64,000 bases of DNA from Gracilimonas mengyeensis (GTDB lineage: Bacteria > Bacteroidota > Rhodothermia > Balneolales > Balneolaceae). The DNA lies in the NCBI RefSeq assembly GCF_900182705.1, contig NZ_FXTP01000005.1:124001-188000 (forward strand), read 5' to 3'. Below, in pieces: positions 19,258 through 30,140 of the stretch; within the stretch, counting starts at the first letter, position 1; every line of letters starts with the position of its first letter. The notes below the pieces were generated by a model that saw only the letters and a program-made list of their open reading frames with translations, was not told the origin of the DNA and made no database searches. The position numbers were made by a program, and so were the translations under genes.

Positions 19258-20016
19258 ATGGTTCTCACCCAAAAACGCATATCCGATCACATCCTCTGGG
19301 CTAATATCAATCGCCCAAAAGCACTCAATGCCATAGATTTTGAGGTACTGGATGAACTGGAAAAGCTGGTCCAAAAGGTTGAAGAAGACGAAGACATTCG
19401 CGTTCTCATTTTGAGCGGAAGCGGGGATAATACCTTTGTCTCGGGCGGTGACCTCAAAAAATTTCATACCATCAAAGAAAAAGATAAGATGGTGGGACAG
19501 GCACAGCGCATTCAAGATCTTTTGTTCCGTATTGAAGAACTTCCCTGCTGGACGGTCGCTCATATCAATGGGGATGCTTATGGCGGGGGAATTGAACTCA
19601 TGCTGGCCTTCGACTTCCGGCTTTCGGTACCTGATGCCAAATTCGGTTTCACCCAGGGACGCTTTTACCTGGTGCCTGGCTGGGGCGGCATGACTCGCCT
19701 GGTGGAAAAAGTGGGCCGAACCAAAGCACTGGAATGGCAGGGAAAATCAGAAGTTTTAGAAGCCCATAAAGTGCTGGCACATGGTATGATTGAACACATA
19801 CTGCTGGGAGATCACCCCGAAAAAGAAACCCTGGCTTGGGTAGAAGCACTTACTCAAAACGACCGGAAATATATCCGAACTCTTAAAGAAAATGCCTTCC
19901 GAATTTCTGCCGCCCGGCGGGAAGCCCTTGAAGCCGAAACCGAGCCTTTTGCTGAGCTTTGGGTCGATGAACAGCATCTTTCCCGTGTGGAAGATTTTAT
20001 GAATAAGGGGAAATAA
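19258..20016 (+). CDS. Enoyl-CoA hydratase/isomerase (crotonase) family protein
   Basis: 252 residues with the crotonase core: oxyanion-hole segment FVSGGDLKKF, then HINGDAYGGGIELMLAFDFRL and LVPGWGGMTRLVEKVG. The first catalytic glutamate of hydratases is kept (GGIELML), but the second, normally in a QPE motif, is replaced by FTQGRF. So true hydratase activity is doubtful; an isomerase, thioesterase or decarboxylase role is possible. It starts 5 nt after the M28 peptidase gene. Confidence 0.85.
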   Translation: MVLTQKRISDHILWANINRPKALNAIDFEVLDELEKLVQKVEEDEDIRVLILSGSGDNTFVSGGDLKKFHTIKEKDKMVGQAQRIQDLLFRIEELPCWTVAHINGDAYGGGIELMLAFDFRLSVPDAKFGFTQGRFYLVPGWGGMTRLVEKVGRTKALEWQGKSEVLEAHKVLAHGMIEHILLGDHPEKETLAWVEALTQNDRKYIRTLKENAFRISAARREALEAETEPFAELWVDEQHLSRVEDFMNKGK

Positions 20017-20050
20017 GTTGAATTCTTAACCGGGACCCTGGTATCACTAA

Positions 20051-20074
20051 GATCCCTGCCTACGCAGGGATGAC
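20051..20074 (+). repeat. GATCCCTGCCTACGCAGGGATGACC palindromic repeat
   Basis: TCCCTGC-CTAC-GCAGGGA hairpin followed by TGACC and a short T-run. It lies 35 bp past the crotonase stop and may also serve as its terminator. Other copies are at 26547 (+), 5099 (damaged) and 44864 (inverted). Confidence 0.6.
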
Positions 20075-20115
20075 CCTTTTTAAGTAGATAAAAAAGCGAC
20101 CCTGTTTATCCCTCC

Positions 20116-20146
20116 CTTTAGCTTAACCCACGGATGAATCCGTGGG
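20116..20146. repeat. Hairpin CCCACGGAT-GA-ATCCGTGGG
   Basis: Nine-bp perfect arms, a short-loop palindrome between the crotonase gene and the DUF2784 gene. Similar in style to CGCGGG-TCCAG-CCCGCG near 48150 and GCTCGAAACC-type stems at 30250. Confidence 0.5.
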
Positions 20147-20173
20147 CGATGGATTCTTTCAGAAACTTATTTA

Positions 20174-20569
20174 ATGACTTTGATTGGTGGTTTTATGTAT
20201 CAATTCCTGGATTACTTTTTCGTGGTGTTCCACTTTTCGTTGATCCTGTTTAACCTCACCGGATGGATTTTCCACAAAACGCGCCGGCTGCATCTGTACG
20301 TTATTACCGCAACGATCTTCTCGTGGGTAGGCCTGGGTATTTTTTATGGATGGGGTTACTGTCCCTGCACCGACTGGCACTGGCAAATAAAATATCAACT
20401 CGGAGAAACCGGCCTCCCGGCGTCATACATTAAATATTACCTGGATGCGGTTACCGGTATTTCCTGGGATGCGTTTACGGTTGATGTTCTTACCGCCAGT
20501 TTGGGCATTGCGGCTTTTTTGTTGTCGGTTTGGATAAACCTGAAAGATTACGTTTCACAAAATAATTAA
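20174..20569 (+). CDS. DUF2784-family small membrane protein
   Basis: 131 residues with four hydrophobic segments. The family signature GWGYCPCTDWHWQIKY and the following LPASYIKYYLDAVTG are clear. The start may be the ATG at 20195 (MYQFLDYF), which fits the family better. Function is unknown; members are small inner-membrane proteins. The gene ends 25 bp before a strong bidirectional terminator. Confidence 0.85.
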   Translation: MTLIGGFMYQFLDYFFVVFHFSLILFNLTGWIFHKTRRLHLYVITATIFSWVGLGIFYGWGYCPCTDWHWQIKYQLGETGLPASYIKYYLDAVTGISWDAFTVDVLTASLGIAAFLLSVWINLKDYVSQNN

Positions 20570-20594
20570 CAGTTACAATTCTTCAGCTAATAAA

Positions 20595-20628
20595 AAACCT
20601 CCAAGGTTTTAAGAAACCTTGGAGGTTT
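20595..20628. terminator. Bidirectional terminator between DUF2784 and the DUF2911 lipoprotein
   Basis: Perfect 15-bp arms AAACCTCCAAGGTTT and AAACCTTGGAGGTTT with loop TAAG, A-rich before and T-rich after on either strand. It serves two convergent genes. Confidence 0.9.
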
Positions 20629-20651
20629 GATTTGAAATGAAAAATCAAAGA

Positions 20652-21815
20652 TTACTCAATGGTAAAAGGGGCACTAAACACGGTTTCGCCCCATATCAGC
20701 TGGAGCTCACCGCCATTATCCGTTTCAACTACAGTTATAGTGAAAGCTTCCGTACTTTCTTCCTTCGTAGAGATTTCCATCGGTACGCGACCTAAATCCA
20801 TGCTCTCATCGTAGGCCGTTCCATTCTGTCCGGTTTCCTCGTTAATGATTAACGTGCCTCCATCCTCTTCTGGAATAGTGAAGAGTGTATAATCACCAGC
20901 TGGTACTTCGAGATCGCCAAATTGCAGATCAGAAGTGGTAGAAAAGTGTGTTGCCCGGTTGGCTCCGGTTCTCCAGACTTCGCCCCAAGGCACGATGCCT
21001 CCAAATAGTTCACGGTCGCGTTTTTGGGGAGAACCGTATTCAAGTTGAAAATTGGTATCGCCGATGTCATACTCTACTTCTACAAAACCGGAAAGAGATC
21101 CGAAAGAATTTCCAGCCCGGTCTTGTTCGGCAAACCTCATACCGATATCGTCAATTGGCAATGATTCATGTCTATACACTTTCAGCTTTCGGGTAGTTAA
21201 ACCTGCATCCAGATATTCCAAGTTACCGCTGTCATCCACATTCACACCCATCACACCGCGGAATGGATGGCGGATAGTCATGGAATCGCCTTCCAGATCA
21301 GCTATAGTGAAATCAGATAACCGGTTGCCCGTTAACAATGGTTGGATTACGGTATCCTGACCTGTTTCTACCGCGTTGTTAAAGGCTACCTCAAAAGGCC
21401 AGTGTACCATGTCGATGAATGGCAATACGCCCGGTTCGTAAGGCGCCGTGTACGTGCCTGGATTATTTTCTTCCATCACTTCCACATACAGGCTGTCGCC
21501 CACGCGATTAACGGTTCGGGTGACCGCTCCTGATCCGGTAAAACCTTCCACCGGCGGATATACGGTTTTAACCATCTCCTCTATACCGCCAGTCTCATCC
21601 AGCGTTAATTTATAAGCAGAAAATGAAGTTTCCGGCACTCGTAAAACCACTTGTGCGGTTATACTGGAGTCGGTTTTCACAAATTGCTCCACCGCCAGCG
21701 TATCGTTTCCAAGCATGGTCACGAATGATGCCTCGTCCTCAACTCCATCTTGGGAACCAGAAGTGCAGGCCCCTAATGTTAATGCAACAAATAGTATCCA
21801 TACAAAATGTCTCAT
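20652..21815 (-). CDS. DUF2911-containing lipoprotein
   Basis: 387 residues from the ATG at 21815; the frame is open to 21866 but MRHFVWILF...GAC gives a proper lipoprotein signal with Cys17. The C-terminal half carries DUF2911 (about 235-385: YGSPQKRDRELFGG, VWRTGANRATHFST, VPAGDYTLFTIP). The N-terminal half (about 30-225) is an extra beta-rich region that I cannot name. The protein should face the periplasm or cell surface. It is monocistronic. Confidence 0.85.
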   Translation of the reverse strand: MRHFVWILFVALTLGACTSGSQDGVEDEASFVTMLGNDTLAVEQFVKTDSSITAQVVLRVPETSFSAYKLTLDETGGIEEMVKTVYPPVEGFTGSGAVTRTVNRVGDSLYVEVMEENNPGTYTAPYEPGVLPFIDMVHWPFEVAFNNAVETGQDTVIQPLLTGNRLSDFTIADLEGDSMTIRHPFRGVMGVNVDDSGNLEYLDAGLTTRKLKVYRHESLPIDDIGMRFAEQDRAGNSFGSLSGFVEVEYDIGDTNFQLEYGSPQKRDRELFGGIVPWGEVWRTGANRATHFSTTSDLQFGDLEVPAGDYTLFTIPEEDGGTLIINEETGQNGTAYDESMDLGRVPMEISTKEESTEAFTITVVETDNGGELQLIWGETVFSAPFTIE

Positions 21816-21996
21816 AGCAAATAATTTGGTTTTAGATTGATAAAAATCTATTTCTAAATGATTCAATGAACAAATATGTATTGGTTAAAAATTGAAACGT
21901 CCTCTATTTATGCTACTATCACAACAAAATTATCGGCTAAATAGTTGGACGTTAACCGCTTTACGGATTTCAAATTATTAGCCTCGGCTTAACGCC

Positions 21997-22644
21997 TTAC
22001 TGTTCTGTCGCCACATTGCCGCTTTCAATCTGTTGGAATGCATCCTTAAAGACTTTTACGGGCTGAGCTCCAGACAATCCGTATTTTTCGTTGATGTAGA
22101 AAAAAGGCACGCCCTGAATCCCAATTTGTCTGGCCACATGCTCATCTTGCCGAACTGCACTTTTATAGGTTTCCTCTTCCAGTACAGAAGCAGCCTCCCT
22201 GGCATCAAGACCTACACCTTCAGCTATTTTCACTAAAGTATCGGAATCACTGATTAGCTTACCTTCAGTAAAATATGCGGCCAACAGGGCTTCCTTCATT
22301 TCATCCTGCAATCCGTTTTCTTTGGCAAGATGGAGTAATTGGTGCGCTTTAAAGGAATTGGCCGGTTGTATATCGTCCATGTTGTAATCCAGCCCTACAT
22401 CTTCGGCATTTTTGACCATGTTGGCATTCATCTGTTTTGCCCAGTCAAGATCTTTACCATACTTCTTCGCCAACACTTCGTTGATGTTGGCATCAGTATG
22501 CTCCGGAGCCTCTGTGTCCAGTTCAAAACTACGCCATATAATTTCTGCATCAATTTCGGGAAGTTGCTCCAATGCCTGTTCCATATGTCGCTTTCCGATG
22601 TAACAAAACGGACAGACTACATCTGACCATATCTCAATTTTCAT
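21997..22644 (-). CDS. DsbA-family oxidoreductase, FrnE-like
   Basis: 215 residues, no signal peptide. The N-terminus MKIEIWSDVVCPFCYIGKR has the redox pair Cys11-x-x-Cys14 and the F-C-Y-I-G-K that marks FrnE-type proteins. The helical insert and the cis-Pro loop GVQGVPFF-like segment (reads IGIQGVPFFYINE, about 172-184) are present. It is a cytoplasmic thiol oxidoreductase or isomerase, often tied to oxidative stress. The neighbours give no further clue. Confidence 0.93.
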   Translation of the reverse strand: MKIEIWSDVVCPFCYIGKRHMEQALEQLPEIDAEIIWRSFELDTEAPEHTDANINEVLAKKYGKDLDWAKQMNANMVKNAEDVGLDYNMDDIQPANSFKAHQLLHLAKENGLQDEMKEALLAAYFTEGKLISDSDTLVKIAEGVGLDAREAASVLEEETYKSAVRQDEHVARQIGIQGVPFFYINEKYGLSGAQPVKVFKDAFQQIESGNVATEQ

Positions 22645-22821
22645 ATCTTAATTCTATAATGTGTTTAGGTTGGTTGCTCTTAGTTCTGAATAACGAAAAT
22701 ATGAGCCTTTTTGTTCAGCTGCAGGTCCAAGGCTATGACGTACAAACCAGTCGGCCACGAACATTGGGATGAGGTTTCAGGATGGACTTTAGCTGATCAT
22801 CCCGTTGGGAGTCGTATTTAA

Positions 22822-22945
22822 AATAACGTCAGTTCGATATAAAAAACGTCATTGCTGCAGATGTTAGATAATTTGGTTAGAAACCCCCGAATGGGGACGG
22901 CTAGAAAACAGTCATTGAATTATCTAACATCTACAGTGATGAACA
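22822..22945. repeat. TAACGTCAGTTCGATAT head followed by a large imperfect hairpin
   Basis: The word at 22822-22840 matches the ends of the element at 5244-5523. It is followed by an inverted pair: CATTGCTGCAGATGTTAGAT and its partner ATCTAACATCTACAGTGATG, extended by AATT, giving arms of about 24 bp with three mismatches at 22850-22943. An inner CCCC-GAAT-GGGG hairpin lies in the loop. No gene fits here. The rest of the gap 22645-23023 shows nothing else. Confidence 0.6.
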
Positions 22946-23023
22946 CGGGGAGAGGAAACAGGGACCTTCAGTCTCAAGCCAAACCCTGTACTTCCAGTAC
23001 AAGGTGTTTTATTTTCAAAAAAA

Positions 23024-24253
23024 TCAGGCTGTTTCTGTGTCCGCATTGCGTAATCCCAGGAATGCTAAGAAAGCTCCGGCCACGACTGTTAGAAAAGCAG
23101 AAAACAGAATCGACTCGATGGCAACCCCGTTATCCAGCATCCATCCCATAAGAAACGGGCTCAGAGCGGTACTGAATACCATCAGCGAAGCAAACAGGGA
23201 ACGCACGGTTCCAATCATGTCTTCTCCGTACAATTCAGCCCACAGCGCAGATTTTGTAGCATTCCCAAAACCCATAGTCACCCCGATCAGGGCCATGTAC
23301 ACAAAAGCGGACCAAATGCCGGGATGAAAAACTCCCATCAGCACACCGGCACCCAATGGCAGAATATAAAAGGGAAATATCTGTCGGGCACTGAAGCGGT
23401 CTATAACCGGACCAATGCCTAAGGAGCTAACAATTCGCGCACCGGCAAAAAAGATGAAAGCGGAAGCAATGATGGCGGCCGTCCAGCCCAACTGTTCAGC
23501 AATGGATACCTGGTACAGGAACAATCCCGTAGCCCAAAATGGAGGTAGTAATACGGCTGGCAGGATCAACCAGAACCGTCGATCACCAAACATCATAGAA
23601 TACGAACCCTTTTTGTCTTCGGACTCCTCACCGGTATCCTCCGTTTTCTTCACCACCTGATTCTTTTCTTCGATGGCCGTTTTCTTCAACAAGTAGAGGA
23701 TGTAGGGAATAAAAACCAGCGCAATAACGGCAGCTATAATGCCCCAGGTTACGCGCCAGCTAAACACGGCCAGAATGGCTGCCATTGCTACCGGCAATAG
23801 ACCTTCTCCCAAAGGATATCCCAGGCTCGATACACTCAATGCTTTCCCACGTTGGAGGTTAAAATACCGGGCCATAGCTGTTTCGGCAGTATGGCCGCTC
23901 AGTCCCTGTCCCGAAAGACGGAGCATCAGTATAGCCGCAAACAAAAATCCGATATGCCAGGAAAACGCCATAGTCAAAGAGGCGATCAGCAGACCGCAAG
24001 CCACATACAAACTGTATCGGCCGATTGGTAACACGTCAATCCATTTTCCCAGGTAGGGCAGGATGGCTGCACTGGCTAAAGTAGCGCCAGAATAGATGGA
24101 GCCAAATGCTGCGTTGGTGAGATTGAAGTCTTCTAAAAAGAAAGGTACAAACAGTGAAATCAGAAATGTTTGGCCAAAGCTTGAAAAGAAGGTAAACGAA
24201 AGACCAAAGCTCAGTACTTTTCTCTCTTGAAGAACAAATGCCAGGTAACTCAA
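23024..24253 (-). CDS. Major facilitator superfamily transporter
   Basis: 409 residues with about 12 hydrophobic segments and a charged central cytoplasmic loop (about 195-220, KKTEDTGEESEDKK). The first half has the loop PYLGKWIDVLPIGRY, corresponding to the MFS loop 2-3. No substrate can be read from the sequence; the general pattern is like monocarboxylate or drug carriers of the family. Monocistronic. Confidence 0.9.
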   Translation of the reverse strand: MSYLAFVLQERKVLSFGLSFTFFSSFGQTFLISLFVPFFLEDFNLTNAAFGSIYSGATLASAAILPYLGKWIDVLPIGRYSLYVACGLLIASLTMAFSWHIGFLFAAILMLRLSGQGLSGHTAETAMARYFNLQRGKALSVSSLGYPLGEGLLPVAMAAILAVFSWRVTWGIIAAVIALVFIPYILYLLKKTAIEEKNQVVKKTEDTGEESEDKKGSYSMMFGDRRFWLILPAVLLPPFWATGLFLYQVSIAEQLGWTAAIIASAFIFFAGARIVSSLGIGPVIDRFSARQIFPFYILPLGAGVLMGVFHPGIWSAFVYMALIGVTMGFGNATKSALWAELYGEDMIGTVRSLFASLMVFSTALSPFLMGWMLDNGVAIESILFSAFLTVVAGAFLAFLGLRNADTETA

Positions 24254-24701
24254 AAGAATAATAGTTTAAATGTTAGCAAACAGTTTGAGTACAAAAAGAT
24301 ACGGGTTTGTGCTTCTAAGAAAAACTTGTGTTGATTGCATTTAGCGATGCTTCAGATAGCCGTGTTTTATGATAGCAGTTCCAGTTTGATTGCGCTTTGA
24401 TGAAGCCTCTTTTTGGTTTGATTTTTTTGTTCTATTTACTCCCTTATCCCCCGTTTCCACCTTTACTTCCAAAAAAACCTTTTACCTGTTAACCCAAGAT
24501 TTGTGCGAGATAACAGCCCCAGGAACCCTTCACTGTACCTATTTCAGCTTAATTGAAAACCCTTAAGCCAGGTGCAATTTCAACCGGTTAAAATATCAGA
24601 CCTGAGCTTGCCCGCATTTTTTTATATATTGTAAGGTCTTTATTGAAAGACGTGATCTTTGAAAATTGAACTATAAAGCCAAAATGTAAGAGGTGTAACC
24701 A
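24254..24701. other. Intergenic region between the MFS and DEAD-box-like genes
   Basis: It holds two divergent promoters by position. I see no repeat, hairpin or small gene of note. AAGAGG at 24688-24693 precedes the TTG start at 24702 by 8 nt and supports that start. Confidence 0.5.
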
Positions 24702-26321
24702 TTGAGTTTTGAACAATTTGGCCTGAGCCCCGAACTGTTGAGCGGGCTGGCCGACGTACGAATTGAAGAACCTACACCTCTCCAGAATGAAGTTATTCCA
24801 CTGGCGCTGCAAGGCAAACATATCCTTGCAAAATATGAAGCCGGTGAAGATGATGGAGTATTTTTGATACCAGCATTGCAAAAACTGACGACCAACGGAG
24901 AGGTTAAAGGCACACGAGTTTTAATATTAACACCATCTGTAGAACGGGCAAAAGCGATTGATGAACAGGTTTGGGCTATGGGTTACCATGCTCAAGTTGG
25001 CAGCAGCTTGCTGTCTATGAAAGGAAATCGCGGAGAGCAAGAACAAGCCCTGAAGGATGAAGCCCCGGTTGTGGTAGCCAATCCCGGCCGGATTATTGAA
25101 TTACTGGAAAAGAATAAGCAGAAGCTTTCTCACGTGGAGCTCGTCATTATTGACGAAGCCCATGGCATGGAGAACTATAACCTGGTGAGCCGGGTAAAAG
25201 ACATCATGCAATATGTGGAAGGAGAGCCTCAGCCTTTAATCTTTTCTGAAAAGAACAACCAAGCTACGCAAGAGCTTTCCGATATGCTGCTTCAGAATCC
25301 TTCTGTTATAGGATTTGATAAAGCAGGCACACATTCTTCCTCATCTGAGAAAAACACATCCGAGGACAAGAAAACCCAGGAAAACAAACCTGAATCATCT
25401 TCCAAAGAAAATAAGGAAGAGGATGAGCAGGAAGAGTTTGTACTGGATCAGGAAGAGGTAAACCGCAAACTGCGCGAAGCCAGCGTGAGCGTGGTATTGA
25501 ATCCTGAAGAGAAAAAAGAGGAAAAGCAGGAGCAAACTTCAGATAGTGAACAGGATGATGATCCGGGACCTATTAACGAAGACCTGAGCCAGGGCTACAT
25601 TTATGTTCCTCCACGGGCTAAGATTTCTACACTGCTGGCACACCTGGAAAAGAACCTTACGGACAAAGTTGTGGTATTTGCTGCTTCCAAGCGTACTACC
25701 GATCGACTTTTCCGCATTATTCGTAAGAAAGGATGGGGCGTAGTAAGTATTAACCCCGGACTGAAGGAAGAATATTATAACGAACGCTTTGGAAAGTTTA
25801 CTTCCGGCGAAATGAAGATTTTACTGGTTGGCGGACTTTCTGCTACTGAAGTGGATCTGAATGAAGCCAAGCAGGTCATCAACTATGATGTGCCTAACGA
25901 AGTGGAAGAGTATAAGTACCGCGCGGAATTAGTAGGCAAAGGCAAAGCAACTCGTATGATCTCTCTCGTATCCAAAATGGATAAAGATGATATCGATGAG
26001 ATTGTGAAGCAGGTAGGATATGCGCCAAAGGAAATTCCGCTTCCTGAAGAAGTGAAAGAGAAAAAAGGACGTGGCAAGAAATCACGCCGTAAGAAAAACA
26101 GTAAGCGCAAAGGCCGAAACAATAAAAGCAGTAATAGCAACAACAAGGATCGCAAGCGCAGAAAAGATCCTAAAAAAGAGAATAAAACAAACGGCCTGCC
26201 CCGCCCCACTTACGATGGTTTATCTGGTGGAAAGGAGGGCAAAAAGAAAGGAAAAGGTAAGCGCCCAAGTCCGGGTAAAAGTGATGGCGCATTTGGCTGG
26301 ATTAAAAAACTGTTTAATTAA
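24702..26321 (+). CDS. DEAD-box helicase-derived protein with lost catalytic motifs
   Basis: 539 residues from a TTG start; an in-frame stop lies two codons upstream and AAGAGG is well spaced. The Q motif (EEPTPLQNEVIP, 22-33) and the Rec A-like order of a DEAD-box protein are clear. Motif I should read AxTGxGKT but reads AKYEAGEDD (43-51), so the invariant Lys and Thr are Glu49 and Asp50. Motif II is DEAH (151-154). Motif III SAT reads SEK. Motif V lost its Arg (GGLSATEVDL) and motif VI HRIGRTGR reads YRAELVGK. An acidic insert (about 210-300) separates the two halves and a very basic tail (about 450-525) ends in GAFGWIKKLFN. It is probably an RNA-binding, ATPase-inactive relative. Confidence 0.88.
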   Translation: MSFEQFGLSPELLSGLADVRIEEPTPLQNEVIPLALQGKHILAKYEAGEDDGVFLIPALQKLTTNGEVKGTRVLILTPSVERAKAIDEQVWAMGYHAQVGSSLLSMKGNRGEQEQALKDEAPVVVANPGRIIELLEKNKQKLSHVELVIIDEAHGMENYNLVSRVKDIMQYVEGEPQPLIFSEKNNQATQELSDMLLQNPSVIGFDKAGTHSSSSEKNTSEDKKTQENKPESSSKENKEEDEQEEFVLDQEEVNRKLREASVSVVLNPEEKKEEKQEQTSDSEQDDDPGPINEDLSQGYIYVPPRAKISTLLAHLEKNLTDKVVVFAASKRTTDRLFRIIRKKGWGVVSINPGLKEEYYNERFGKFTSGEMKILLVGGLSATEVDLNEAKQVINYDVPNEVEEYKYRAELVGKGKATRMISLVSKMDKDDIDEIVKQVGYAPKEIPLPEEVKEKKGRGKKSRRKKNSKRKGRNNKSSNSNNKDRKRRKDPKKENKTNGLPRPTYDGLSGGKEGKKKGKGKRPSPGKSDGAFGWIKKLFN

Positions 26322-26360
26322 AGCCGCCTGATTTCATAACGATTTATACCTGGCAAACGA

Positions 26361-26396
26361 AAAAGGCCTGTCATCTTATGGTGACGGGCCTTTTTT
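26361..26396 (+). terminator. Terminator after the DEAD-box-like gene
   Basis: AAAAGGCCTGTCA pairs with TGACGGGCCTTTT around a short loop and is followed by T6. It lies 40 bp past the stop. Confidence 0.9.
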
Positions 26397-26403
26397 ATGG
26401 TTC

Positions 26404-26422
26404 TTAATGTGAATTCGATATA
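26404..26422 (+). repeat. TTAATGTGAATTCGATAT copy of the dispersed head word
   Basis: Differs by one base from TAACGTGAATTCGATAT-type copies at 5244-5523, 22822 and 48060. It is followed by AT-rich sequence and then the palindromes at 26474 and 26549. Confidence 0.5.
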
Positions 26423-26473
26423 AGAATTGATATAGAAATATGTTTAATGCTCATTCCGCAGCTTACCTGTCCC

Positions 26474-26566
26474 GACAAACTTGTCGGTGAGGCCCGGAAT
26501 CTTATTGTTTGCCAGCTATCAATAGTTGGATTCAACAAAAAAATTAGATCCCTGCCTGCGCAGGGA
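26474..26566 (+). repeat. Two palindromes: CCGACAAACTTGTCGG and GATCCCTGCCTGCGCAGGGATGA
   Basis: The first hairpin is at 26474-26489; the second (TCCCTGC-CTGC-GCAGGGA) at 26549-26566 is a clean copy of the family also seen at 20051 and 44864. Both lie in the convergent gap between the DEAD-box-like gene and yidC. Confidence 0.6.
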
Positions 26567-26634
26567 TGAACATAAAACCTCCTTTTAACCGGTTTTACCT
26601 ATTCTTATCTCAGGATTTCTGTACTGACAGAAAC

Positions 26635-26687
26635 AAAAACGGCCCAGACTAACCATGCACGTTTTGCATGGCTTGCCTGAGCCGTTA
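26635..26687 (-). terminator. Terminator of the rpmH-rnpA-yidC operon
   Basis: On the minus strand AACGGCTCAGG...CCATGCA pairs with TGCATGG...CTGGGCCGTT, with a small internal loop, and is followed by T5. It lies 29 bp past the yidC stop. Confidence 0.85.
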
Positions 26688-26715
26688 ACATTGTAAATAA
26701 GTTGGTTTGACTGTT

Positions 26716-28509
26716 TTAAGCCTTGGCCGTCTCTTTATCGGCATGCAGACTTCGCTTAATGAAGAACTGCTGTACAATAGACAATACATTAAATACGAGA
26801 TAATAGAGACTCAGTCCGGCAGCAAAATTGTTGAATATGAACAGTAACATAACCGGGAAGATGTACTGCAAGATCTTCATCTGGCCGGCCATAGGACTGC
26901 TGCCGCCACCGCCACTCATTCCGCCGGTTAACTTACTTTGAACCATCATTGCCGCTGTCATCAACAGTACAAAACCGGCAATTTGGTCACCCAAAAATGG
27001 AATTTCGAAAGGCAGGTTAATGATGTAATCCGGGGCGGATAAATCTCCGGCCCACAAGAATTCTTCCTGACGGATTAAAATAGAGTTTTGGAAATACCGC
27101 CAAAGGGTAATCAGGATGGGGAACTGCAGCAAGTTAGGCAAACATCCACCAAGGGGATTTACCTTGTTCTTGCGATACAAGTCCATCGTAGCTTTCTGCT
27201 GCTTCTGCGGATTATCTTTATACTTCTCTTGTATCTCCTTCATTTGAGGCTGCAGCTCGCCCATCGCCGCCATACTCTTGTAACTCTTGTAAGTGAGCGG
27301 TGACAGCACCAGTTTCACCAAACTGGCAAATACAATAATGATGACCCCAAAATTATTGATGAATCCAGACATGAATTCAAAAAATGGTATCACCATCCAG
27401 CGTACAAAAGGTTCAGAGAACCAGCGCAGCCAGCTCCACCCGATATCTACCATATCATAGGCTCGATCATCAATCTTGGTGATCGCCCGGTACTTTAAAG
27501 GTCCCAAATACATGCGGAAGGAAGCGACTCCCTGATCATCCAGATCAGAGCGGATGATGGAGGTATACCGGTGTTCGGTATTTTGATTGTCGATCGCGCC
27601 GGTTACTTCTCCGGTTACGATAGCAGCATCGGTGGGAGAAATGGGTTTGATTAACTGGGTAAAGAATTTCGTTTTGGTAGCTGCCCAGTCGATATTGCCG
27701 TTGATGGTTAACTCGTCGCGTCCGGCTTCATCCAGCTTAAACTGTTCGAGCTCGCCGCCTGCATATACATAAGCAGAGGTTGGCAAAGCGTCTTGGGTAT
27801 GATCTTTCTCTGTAAAACGTAAAGGTGAAGTCCAGCCAAAATCGATGGAATGGCCTACTACATATTCCCTTAAGCCAACAAATTCTATATCGGCGTCAAC
27901 TTCATAGTTATCTCCATTCAACAGGTAGGTAATAACTACTCGCCGGCCATCACCGAGATCCAGCTCATACTGAACTTCCCGTTGTTCACCCGGTGCAATA
28001 GTAAGAGAAGAGCCTCTGGTCACCTGACGAAACATCAGGTTCTGGGTTTCTACATTATAATTCTCTGTGGATAGGAAACCAATATTATAAGCAGAGTGTG
28101 TAGTATCAGCTATAAGCTGTACCGGGCGTCCGTCCCAGGTGTCATAATCATTCAGTATAAAAGAAGCAGGTCCGCCACCACGATTGGTAAATGTCACATC
28201 ATAAAGCGGAGTACTTACTTGTAGGCGGCTCTCTTCGGTTACTGTACTGTTACCAAAAAGGCCCCTTGTTTCAGGAACTTCGTCGGTCTCTTCACTTATG
28301 GAAGGCTCCTGACGATCTGCTTCTTGACTGGTTACTTGTTCACTTTCTGCTATCGAGTCCTGACGGGCTTCTATTAAAGCCAGGCTGTCACTTTCTGCTT
28401 GCTCTCTGCGCTGTTGGGCCAGTTCTTCTTCGGAAGGCATGGTAAAATAGAACCACCCCAGCATTAGCAAGAATATCAGGACAAATCCGGTTACTGTATT
28501 TTTATCCAA
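26716..28509 (-). CDS. yidC: Membrane protein insertase YidC
   Basis: 597 residues. One N-terminal membrane helix (about 7-24), an acidic stretch, the large periplasmic beta domain (about 75-350), then the conserved five-helix insertase core (about 360-585) with VKLVLSPLTYKSYKSM, the cytoplasmic hairpin and QFPILITLWRYF. It inserts membrane proteins alone or with SecYEG. It is the last gene of the rpmH-rnpA-yidC cluster, 12 nt after rnpA; the yidD gene usually found between them is absent. Confidence 0.97.
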   Translation of the reverse strand: MDKNTVTGFVLIFLLMLGWFYFTMPSEEELAQQRREQAESDSLALIEARQDSIAESEQVTSQEADRQEPSISEETDEVPETRGLFGNSTVTEESRLQVSTPLYDVTFTNRGGGPASFILNDYDTWDGRPVQLIADTTHSAYNIGFLSTENYNVETQNLMFRQVTRGSSLTIAPGEQREVQYELDLGDGRRVVITYLLNGDNYEVDADIEFVGLREYVVGHSIDFGWTSPLRFTEKDHTQDALPTSAYVYAGGELEQFKLDEAGRDELTINGNIDWAATKTKFFTQLIKPISPTDAAIVTGEVTGAIDNQNTEHRYTSIIRSDLDDQGVASFRMYLGPLKYRAITKIDDRAYDMVDIGWSWLRWFSEPFVRWMVIPFFEFMSGFINNFGVIIIVFASLVKLVLSPLTYKSYKSMAAMGELQPQMKEIQEKYKDNPQKQQKATMDLYRKNKVNPLGGCLPNLLQFPILITLWRYFQNSILIRQEEFLWAGDLSAPDYIINLPFEIPFLGDQIAGFVLLMTAAMMVQSKLTGGMSGGGGSSPMAGQMKILQYIFPVMLLFIFNNFAAGLSLYYLVFNVLSIVQQFFIKRSLHADKETAKA

Positions 28510-28521
28510 GAGTGTAGTTAT

Positions 28522-28962
28522 TTATTGGGCTGAAGTTTTGGAAATCACATGTTCCCGTAATTTGCGAAGCAAGTAACTAACATCTTTTTGTGCGGCCTTA
28601 AAATCAATATCAGAATGACGCGCGACAAACGCATAATGTACAGCAAAGGTACATGAAGGAGAAAGGTCAGTAATAAGATGTTGATTCAAACGGTAAGCTT
28701 CGCGCAAGAGCCGCTTAACGCGAACCCTTTCTACGGCGTTACCAATTCTTTTAGGAGCTATGAAGCCCGCCAAAAACTTACGCGAGGCTTCAGAATGAAT
28801 AACAAAACGCAGGGTAATTTTTGATGTTGCAAAAAAAGAGGAACTATTGAAAAGTTCCTCAAAATTCTTCTTACCACTTAATCGGTGCGATTTAGGTAAG
28901 TTAAACCTACGCTCTGTTGAATCAGTAATACTTAAATTACTTCTTTGCTCCTTTCTTCTCAT
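28522..28962 (-). CDS. rnpA: Ribonuclease P protein component
   Basis: 146 residues; core [17 protein letters not shown] then [26 protein letters not shown]. The usual RNR motif reads RVR, so the central Asn is replaced by Val. The only start codon in frame is the ATG at 28962, which overlaps the end of rpmH by 26 nt and gives a 24-residue extension before the family core. It forms RNase P with the catalytic RNA (not in this window). Confidence 0.93.
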
Positions 28963-29098
28963 CGCTTACCGTTAGCTTATGACGGCCTTTAGCTCGGCGC
29001 CGTGCTAATACTTTGCGTCCTTTCTTGGTGGACATTCTTTCGCGAAAACCATGTTTGTTCTTTCGCTTCTTGTTACTTGGTTGATACGTGCGTTTCAT
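28937..29098 (-). CDS. rpmH: Ribosomal protein L34
   Basis: 53 codons: starts [20 protein letters not shown], then [19 protein letters not shown], and ends KKGAKK. The normal L34 is about 45 residues, so a short Lys-rich C-terminal tail is added. The tail is read in a different frame through the beginning of rnpA, which couples the two genes. It is too short to appear in many gene calls but is unmistakable. Confidence 0.97.
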
Positions 29099-29309
29099 GA
29101 ATATGGATATTTTATTCGTTCAATTTCTTATCCGAAAAAGGCTTTAAATATAAAGAGAATCTCAGAAAAAACAGAACTATTATTCAACCTGCAATTAATT
29201 CCCTTAATTAACCTCGTTTCACTAACCATTTTAGCAATTTAGCTTTAGAATTTTACCCTCATTCTGCTATTTTCCCACAAATCGTTAGCAATTTTTTTAC
29301 TCCAATCCC

Positions 29310-30140
29310 GTGACTTTAGACCTCTTTGAACCTGCGGCCGTCACCCAAAAAGAACGGGTGAACCATGCCATGAGCGAGCTACCGCCGCATCAACCCGGGG
29401 TGTATACCATGTACGACCGTCATGACCAGGTTCTGTACGTAGGCAAAGCCAAAGACTTGCAGCAGCGGATAACGTCCTACCGGTATTCCAAATCAAAGAA
29501 AGTACAGCGGATGGTAGCCCACCTTCACCGCATCGGCTATGAAGTTTGCAATACCGAAACCGATGCCATACTACTTGAAAACCTGCTCATTCGTTCGCTG
29601 CGCCCGCCTTTCAATCAAGCCAACAAAAAACCGGAAACCTATTATTACATATCGACAACACGCAGAGGCAACAAACGAGAGTTTCGGCTATCGATGAGCG
29701 TGCCGGATGAATATCCTAATGTATATGGTTGTTTTAAAGGGCACTTGAAAACCCGTAAAGGCCTGGGGGCTTTACTCAAACTTTTGTACCTGATGGGGCG
29801 GCCCATCCGCAGCGCCCACTACCTACCAAGCCAGCTATTAAGCCGCATCACCCCTCAGAAATTCACTCTCACTATGGATCCGCAAACCGGGGTACTGGTG
29901 AATCAATTTCTAAAAGGTGCCTCCTCCCTTTTAGCCGATGAACTGGAGGAGTTTGTGCTGGGCATGAAGTTCAAAGACAAGTTCACCGAGAATTATTTTG
30001 ATAATGAACTGGAATTACTGCGCACGTTTTTCACCCTTGGCCCCCAGCGCAATTTCCGCATGAAAGAGGAGTTAAATCTCCAAAGTGAGCTGATCGATCA
30101 GGACAAAATTGATGATTTGATGGCGTTGATGAAGGGGTGA
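29310..30140 (+). CDS. Stand-alone GIY-YIG endonuclease domain protein (Cho/UvrC-N-like)
   Basis: 276 residues from a GTG start. The GIY-YIG domain is at about 25-115: PGVYTMYDRHDQVLYVGKAKDLQQRITSY, followed by Glu in DAILLENLLIRSLRPPFN. The remaining 160 residues resemble the region after GIY-YIG in UvrC-like/Cho proteins but no UvrC C-terminal nuclease or HhH is present. It may cut 3' of DNA lesions together with UvrA/UvrB; uvrA is 6 kb away. Monocistronic. Confidence 0.85.
   Translation: MTLDLFEPAAVTQKERVNHAMSELPPHQPGVYTMYDRHDQVLYVGKAKDLQQRITSYRYSKSKKVQRMVAHLHRIGYEVCNTETDAILLENLLIRSLRPPFNQANKKPETYYYISTTRRGNKREFRLSMSVPDEYPNVYGCFKGHLKTRKGLGALLKLLYLMGRPIRSAHYLPSQLLSRITPQKFTLTMDPQTGVLVNQFLKGASSLLADELEEFVLGMKFKDKFTENYFDNELELLRTFFTLGPQRNFRMKEELNLQSELIDQDKIDDLMALMKG

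Follow-up and report, generated by a model that had tools for sequence, protein, structure and literature searches.

A Balneolaceae DEAD-box paralogue that has lost its catalytic motifs and is kept by selection, probably without ATPase activity

The window, a stretch of 64,000 nucleotides of Gracilimonas mengyeensis DNA, holds a gene for a DEAD-box protein with ruined catalytic motifs. Balneolaceae is a family of mostly marine, salt-loving bacteria, and orthologues that share these losses occur in most of its genomes. A preliminary description, made from the letters of the window, had proposed an intact, selected, ATPase-dead DEAD-box protein that binds RNA, perhaps as a ribosome or RNA chaperone. 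The comparative analysis presented here supports the proposal in part, for the intact, selected and ATPase-dead protein: with the loss of ATPase read from the motifs, we regard it as almost certain that the protein is ATPase-dead and under selection. We further think it likely, with appreciably less confidence, that this pseudohelicase stems from one duplication, after which it lost its ATPase and was retained as an RNA/RNP adaptor without catalysis.

Results

An intact gene with a DEAD-box fold

The gene is carried by contig C5 of a 4.67-Mb genome, and its features are collected in Table 1. The frame proved intact over the full length first reported, and the gene has its own terminator, as had been claimed. 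A search of positions 20000-30000 for known structured-RNA families gave none at gathering thresholds. Its matches to the Pfam families DEAD (67.8 bits) and Helicase_C (45 bits) exceed the curated cut-offs; by these matches and its Q motif, the product is a DEAD-box (superfamily 2) protein by descent. Compared with NCBIfam, it scored 160 bits with CshA (cut-off 646) and 134.4 bits with RhlE (cut-off 743), and the equivalog cut-off was not reached.

An AlphaFold model based on 44 sequences contained two RecA domains, mostly with pLDDT above 90, a disordered linker (about residues 207-290), a disordered tail and a helix at residues 531-538. The pTM was only 0.45; the model supports the single domains, and the mutual arrangement of RecA1 and RecA2 is therefore not given by it. 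Predicted RecA1 could be superimposed on the N-terminal domain of eIF4A with an rmsd of 1.5 Å over 202 residues (Z 30.7). The Pfam matches and the two confidently predicted RecA domains agree with the original view that the DEAD-box fold and the order of the domains are retained.

Table 1. Features of the gene and its product, in positions of the window
Feature	Positions	Strand	Basis or remark
Pseudo-DEAD-box gene	24702..26321	+	539 aa, TTG start; orthologues known
Q motif region F3-Q28, retained	24708..24785	+	Gln (Q28) in window copy
RecA1 domain, residues 1-206, fast-evolving	24702..25319	+	Identity comparison, AlphaFold, eIF4A superposition
Ruined motif I, EAGEDD replacing TGTGKT	24837..24854	+	Alignment
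Motif II, DEAH in window copy; degenerate in many orthologues	25152..25163	+	Alignment
Ruined motif III, SEK replacing SAT	25245..25253	+	Alignment
Acidic, disordered insert between the domains (residues 207-290; net charge -13); one branch only	25320..25571	+	
Short linker motif KLxxASVxVVLNPE	25449..25520	+	1-3 copies in 17/55 named loci
RecA2 domain, residues 291-448, strongly conserved	25572..26045	+	Identity comparison, dN/dS, AlphaFold
Ruined motif VI, YRAELVGK replacing HRIGRTGR	25917..25940	+	Alignment
Disordered basic tail	26046..26285	+	Residues 449-539: net charge +26
Conserved tail motif LPRPxYDxLSGG	26196..26231	+	LP[RQL]P in 55/55 named loci; 23 aligned
C-terminal short helix GAFGWIKKLFN	26286..26318	+	Helix 531-538, last block pLDDT 65
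Intrinsic terminator	26359..26396	+	17-pair stem, -26.9 kcal/mol, z -7.3

Distribution in the Balneolaceae

Orthologues were recognised by a gap in the scores obtained with a RecA2 profile (at least 139 bits, against at most 108 bits for other DEAD proteins). Of 92 Balneolaceae genomes, 79 encode such a protein, a few of these proteins being cut by contig ends, and 18 of 21 genera are represented; among genomes of good quality the figure was 61 of 66. The 13 family genomes that lack an orthologue are G012, G017, G023, G029, G030 (a broken copy), G083, G084, G094, G107, G108, G110, G111 and G114; several of these are incomplete, and in G017 the contig stops beyond the neighbour gene. None of 36 genomes from other families of the order exceeded 108 bits with the same profile. 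In a scan of 394 genomes sampled across the phylum, the first pass of which took at most nine candidates per genome, all 44 hits at E ≤ 1e-30 fell within the family and none outside it.

A scan of named genomes, in which 80 of 90 loci were examined, gave 55 strong matches (hereafter the named loci) and 25 weak ones. The strong matches came from Gracilimonas, Balneola, Rhodohalobacter, Fodinibius/Aliifodinibius and uncultured members, with a few listed under broader or other names. The weak ones (24-30% matches) came from Acetobacter, archaea, Planctomycetota, Chloroflexi and an unclassified bacterium.

Loss of the catalytic motifs

The motifs were read from an alignment of 61 orthologues (the window copy, the 55 named loci, L085-L087, L034 and L036) with two intact DEAD proteins. 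Relative to L001, an intact paralogue from the same genome, motif I of the window copy has changed from AQTGTGKT to YEAGE-DD, with Lys and Thr both replaced by Asp and one residue missing, and motif V from VATDVLARGID to LVGGLSATEVD. The change of motif III, described earlier, was confirmed in the alignment with L001. Motif I had been described as a Lys-Thr to Glu-Asp replacement. The loss stands; the exact pair does not, as it depends on the register (Asp-Asp in this alignment) and is not conserved in orthologues. The motif I Thr was absent from all 58 readable orthologues, and Lys stood at the aligned column in 10 of them, never together with Thr. The two columns read P-E in 25 sequences, D-D in 7, D-N in 6, D-E in 5, K-I and K-N in 4 each, S-L in 2, and E-E, R-I, S-Y, K-V and K-Y in one each; the whole loop varies freely among genera. 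Since the Lys-Thr columns vary so widely, it is the loss itself that is conserved, not the Glu-Asp pair.

Motif II was readable in 59 orthologues. Its first Asp was kept in 55; its Glu was kept in 21, the window copy included, and replaced by Gln in 24. The statement that DEAH is retained thus holds for the window protein and fails for many orthologues. The motif III Thr survived in 9 of 59 sequences and the motif V Thr in none of 61. As to the arginines of motif VI, all reported as gone, the first is still present (R407 in the window copy; 58 of 61 orthologues), and the second and third are indeed lost (60 and 59 of 61, respectively). The Q motif was correctly described as kept: 55 of 58 readable orthologues have its Gln. 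The preliminary description had itself named one finding as contrary to its proposal, namely orthologues with intact GKT and HRIGRTGR; these were looked for and were absent from the alignment.

The retained Q-motif Gln, the motif II Glu in a minority of copies that includes the window's and the occasional motif I Lys could be taken to mean that ATPase activity persists at an unusual nucleotide site. We consider this most improbable: the P-loop Thr is gone from every readable copy and the Lys from 48 of 58, the loop is free to vary, and motif V and two of the motif VI arginines are lost as well.

The Arg of motif Ia was lost in 57 of 58 and that of motif IVa in 53 of 61 orthologues. These residues and the motif V Thr contact RNA in active DEAD-box enzymes. 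RNA binding through the classical groove looks lost, as far as such residues tell; with the canonical contacts gone, any RNA binding would have to use the basic tail or a new surface.

Origin and inverted constraint

The active paralogue of the window genome, L001 (515 aa), has CshA as its best NCBIfam match (423 bits, below the cut-off of 646). In the tree, the pseudohelicases formed one clade (SH-aLRT 100). The clade was placed beside the active CshA/RhlE-type paralogue of the family with a support of 89, which is below the threshold of 95. It branches into family subgroups similar to those of the active paralogue.

Mean identities were calculated for 18 genomes (153 pairs). The pseudohelicases gave 41.5% in RecA1 and 59.3% in RecA2, and the active paralogues 71.3% and 65.6%, respectively. 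RecA2 identity exceeded that of RecA1 in 140 of 153 pseudohelicase pairs as against 24 of 153 pairs of the active paralogue. Fifteen near-invariant positions of the pseudohelicase differ from the commonest residue of the active paralogue, all of them within RecA2. Constraint is inverted relative to the active paralogue and has moved to RecA2 and the tail.

Eight pairs of orthologues were used to estimate dN/dS; some regions of the wider pairs were saturated and gave no ratio. For L011/L012 we obtained 0.000/0.084 in RecA2; for L013/L017, 0.004/0.068 in RecA1 and 0.005/0.125 in RecA2; and for L032/L033, 0.042/0.492 in RecA1 and 0.023/0.848 in RecA2. Substitution rates in close pairs indicate that both RecA domains are under purifying selection. 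The insert and the tail evolve faster than the RecA domains.

These results bear on the simplest alternative, namely a decaying pseudogene or a sequencing error in the window strain. Motif losses as such would fit decay, as would the broken copy of one genome described below. The presence of orthologues in 79 of the 92 family genomes, spread over 18 genera, the same losses in 61 aligned sequences and dN well below dS speak against it; we therefore rejected strain-specific decay and give this alternative next to no weight.

The insert, the tail and the C-terminal segment

The acidic insert pointed out in the preliminary description is present in the window copy and confined to a Gracilimonas/Balneola-type branch. 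Most of the remaining readable named loci have a length of 451-492 aa. Within the insert, KLxxASVxVVL occurs in one to three copies (for example in L131, L132 and L133). Among 20 readable genomes, two (G000 and G006) had a linker-like piece in the tail of their active paralogue. As both belong to the genus of the window, the linker motif was rejected as a tie between pseudohelicase and paralogue across the family. A profile of the motif gave no score on the active paralogue, and profiles of the tail and the linker motif, run against six genomes, found no other protein better than E 0.05.

The tail of ten further examples carried a net charge of +14 to +25. Its conservation holds for the 55 named loci, each of which has a basic tail with LP[RQL]P and a short hydrophobic-basic end (mean helical moment 0.56). 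It does not extend to L085-L087 of genus g4, in which the motif has diverged to IPRV and APRV types, or to L036, from which it is missing. Taken singly, the C-terminal peptides showed only modest amphipathicity (eight examples, shuffle p 0.02-0.18). The segment may resemble the C-terminal helices that target proteins such as MinD to the membrane. In all 20 readable genomes a related segment, KGhxGhhK, stands at the end of the active paralogue.

The shared C-terminal segment, the Q-motif region and RecA folds common to both proteins, and the similar branching of the two trees are what one might expect of a regulatory decoy that tunes the activity of the active paralogue, either by pairing with it or by competition for its partner or RNA. 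By analogy, other pseudoenzymes regulate their active sisters. However, no partner motif is shared across the family, the linker-like motif being limited as described above. In addition, 10 of the 13 family genomes that lack the gene retain a DEAD-box match which, as judged by score alone, is on a level with the active paralogue. We regard a decoy as rather unlikely, and favour the RNA/RNP adaptor.

The locus and loss of the gene

Most orthologues lie at one conserved locus. Its neighbours were identified by inspecting their sequences rather than by a family search; those that recurred in 19 fetched family regions were SecG (18), MscS (16), SRAP (15), CPBP protease (14) and Kbl (10), and they give no pointer to RNA work. 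In 13 of the 14 fetched regions that have both, the CPBP protease gene is beside the pseudohelicase gene on the same strand. Joint transcription of the two is possible. We do not propose a functional pairing with CPBP: the window genome has its gene on a different contig, and it stays where the pseudohelicase gene is deleted.

Contig C6 of the window genome carries the CPBP and SRAP genes, away from the pseudohelicase gene; this strain is therefore rearranged at the locus. Within positions 22000-30000 of the window, the pseudohelicase gene is flanked by an MFS-like gene and a yidC-rnpA-like pair (both named by eye), an arrangement that differs from that in G004 and G006 of the same genus.

Genus g4 consists of small genomes (1.4-2.7 Mb), most of them incomplete. 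G109, G112 and G113 have intact but very divergent copies (461-501 aa, no GKT). Barring an error in the draft assembly, a frame change and stop codons disrupt the copy in G030. In G012, G110 and G111 the gene is absent between CPBP and Kbl. The intact, broken and absent states at one g4 locus (L085-L087, L257, L254, L255 and L256) amount to a small gene-loss series. From these states it follows that the gene is useful in most of the Balneolaceae and not essential; going by the g4 sequences, it is dispensable in some small genomes.

Small matches inside Kbl in L254-L256 were considered as remnants of the gene and rejected, as their sole source is the aberrant end of the G022 copy, which is antisense to Kbl. 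The G022 orthologue (L036/L083) has no LPRP, and its end runs antisense into Kbl; a frameshift within the tail, or a fault of the draft, seems the likely cause.

The locus and the losses also bear on a possible role as a ribosome-assembly factor without enzymatic activity, like Utp25 in the eukaryotic small-subunit processome. The long basic tail would suit such a role, and Utp25 provides a precedent, a DEAD-box fold with dispensable vestigial motifs (PMC9539457). Against this, there are no ribosome-linked genes among the recurring neighbours, the gene is lost in some genomes and nothing was found that ties the protein to rRNA. A ribosome-assembly factor of this type thus appears unlikely, slightly more so than a decoy.

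Discussion

How might the non-catalytic RNA/RNP adaptor that we favour have arisen, and how might it work? A resident CshA/RhlE-type helicase gene would have been duplicated once, at or near the base of the Balneolaceae. The duplicate would have lost ATP binding and hydrolysis, and its catalytic lobe would have been freed from constraint. Conserved RecA2 may dock a partner, the candidates being an RNase, a component of ribosome assembly or of the degradosome, and the active paralogue itself. The basic disordered tail would hold RNA, and the C-terminal helix, of a kind shared with the active paralogue, would co-localise both proteins at the membrane surface or on a common partner. In this way the pseudohelicase would unwind nothing itself, but would hold RNA/RNP or bring it to the active helicase. 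We put forward these details (docking by RecA2, RNA binding by the tail, co-localisation by the helix) tentatively. A wider conjecture, to which we attach the same guarded degree of belief, is that these proteins are the founding family of bacterial DEAD-box RNA pseudohelicases. RecA2, with its some 15 new invariant positions, might then be a new docking module, tethered by the helix to the site of the active sister, and the protein a non-catalytic organiser of RNA processing throughout the family.

With a predicted helicase fold, vestigial catalytic motifs and maintenance by selection, the protein fits the description of a pseudohelicase such as Utp25 or D. radiodurans PriA. Few pseudohelicases seem to have been described: in the open-licence literature the term occurs in four papers, two of which apply it to a protein in their titles, and among the matches listed there we found no study of a bacterial DEAD-box pseudohelicase or of a Balneolaceae helicase. 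Utp25/Def is a DEAD-box pseudohelicase of the eukaryotic SSU processome with vestigial, dispensable motifs (PMC9539457). It resembles the Balneolaceae protein in its DEAD-box fold, its non-functional motifs, its proposed origin by duplication and divergence and its conservation; it differs in being eukaryotic and essential, whereas the Balneolaceae protein is bacterial, limited to one family, dispensable in some genomes and endowed with a different tail. PriA of Deinococcus radiodurans is a pseudohelicase with motifs poorly conserved throughout the phylum, which has lost its ATPase and kept the binding of ligands and partners (PMC4504706). Both are bacterial helicases with degenerate motifs; the ATPase loss is known for PriA and deduced from motifs here. 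PriA, however, is described as a DNA replication restart protein (PMC4504706), whereas the present protein is a paralogue of a DEAD-box RNA helicase that coexists with its intact sister. The CshA/RhlE-type helicases (NCBIfam NF053631 and others, L001) are closest in that CshA is the best family match, the domain order is the same and the Balneolaceae paralogue has a similar C-terminal segment. Unlike them, the pseudohelicase has no catalytic motifs and stays far under the equivalog cut-off of CshA.

The family offers a natural experiment, in which one duplication, with the intact sister in the same cell, can be followed through dozens of genomes as constraint shifts away from the ATP-binding lobe and onto the second. 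One lineage shows the gene intact, broken and deleted at the same locus. The system makes an ATP-free scaffold function of a DEAD-box protein testable.

Start codon usage

A TTG start, picked by script, was found in 50 of the 52 named loci with a readable start (L125-L178 and L186), and AGGT was present at most 20 nt upstream of the start in 47 of the 52. Retention of this rare start may mean translational control. The neighbouring genes start with ATG (SecG in 12 of 12 found and Kbl in 9 of 9 found), and the starts of the active paralogue were picked as TTG in 9 of 20.
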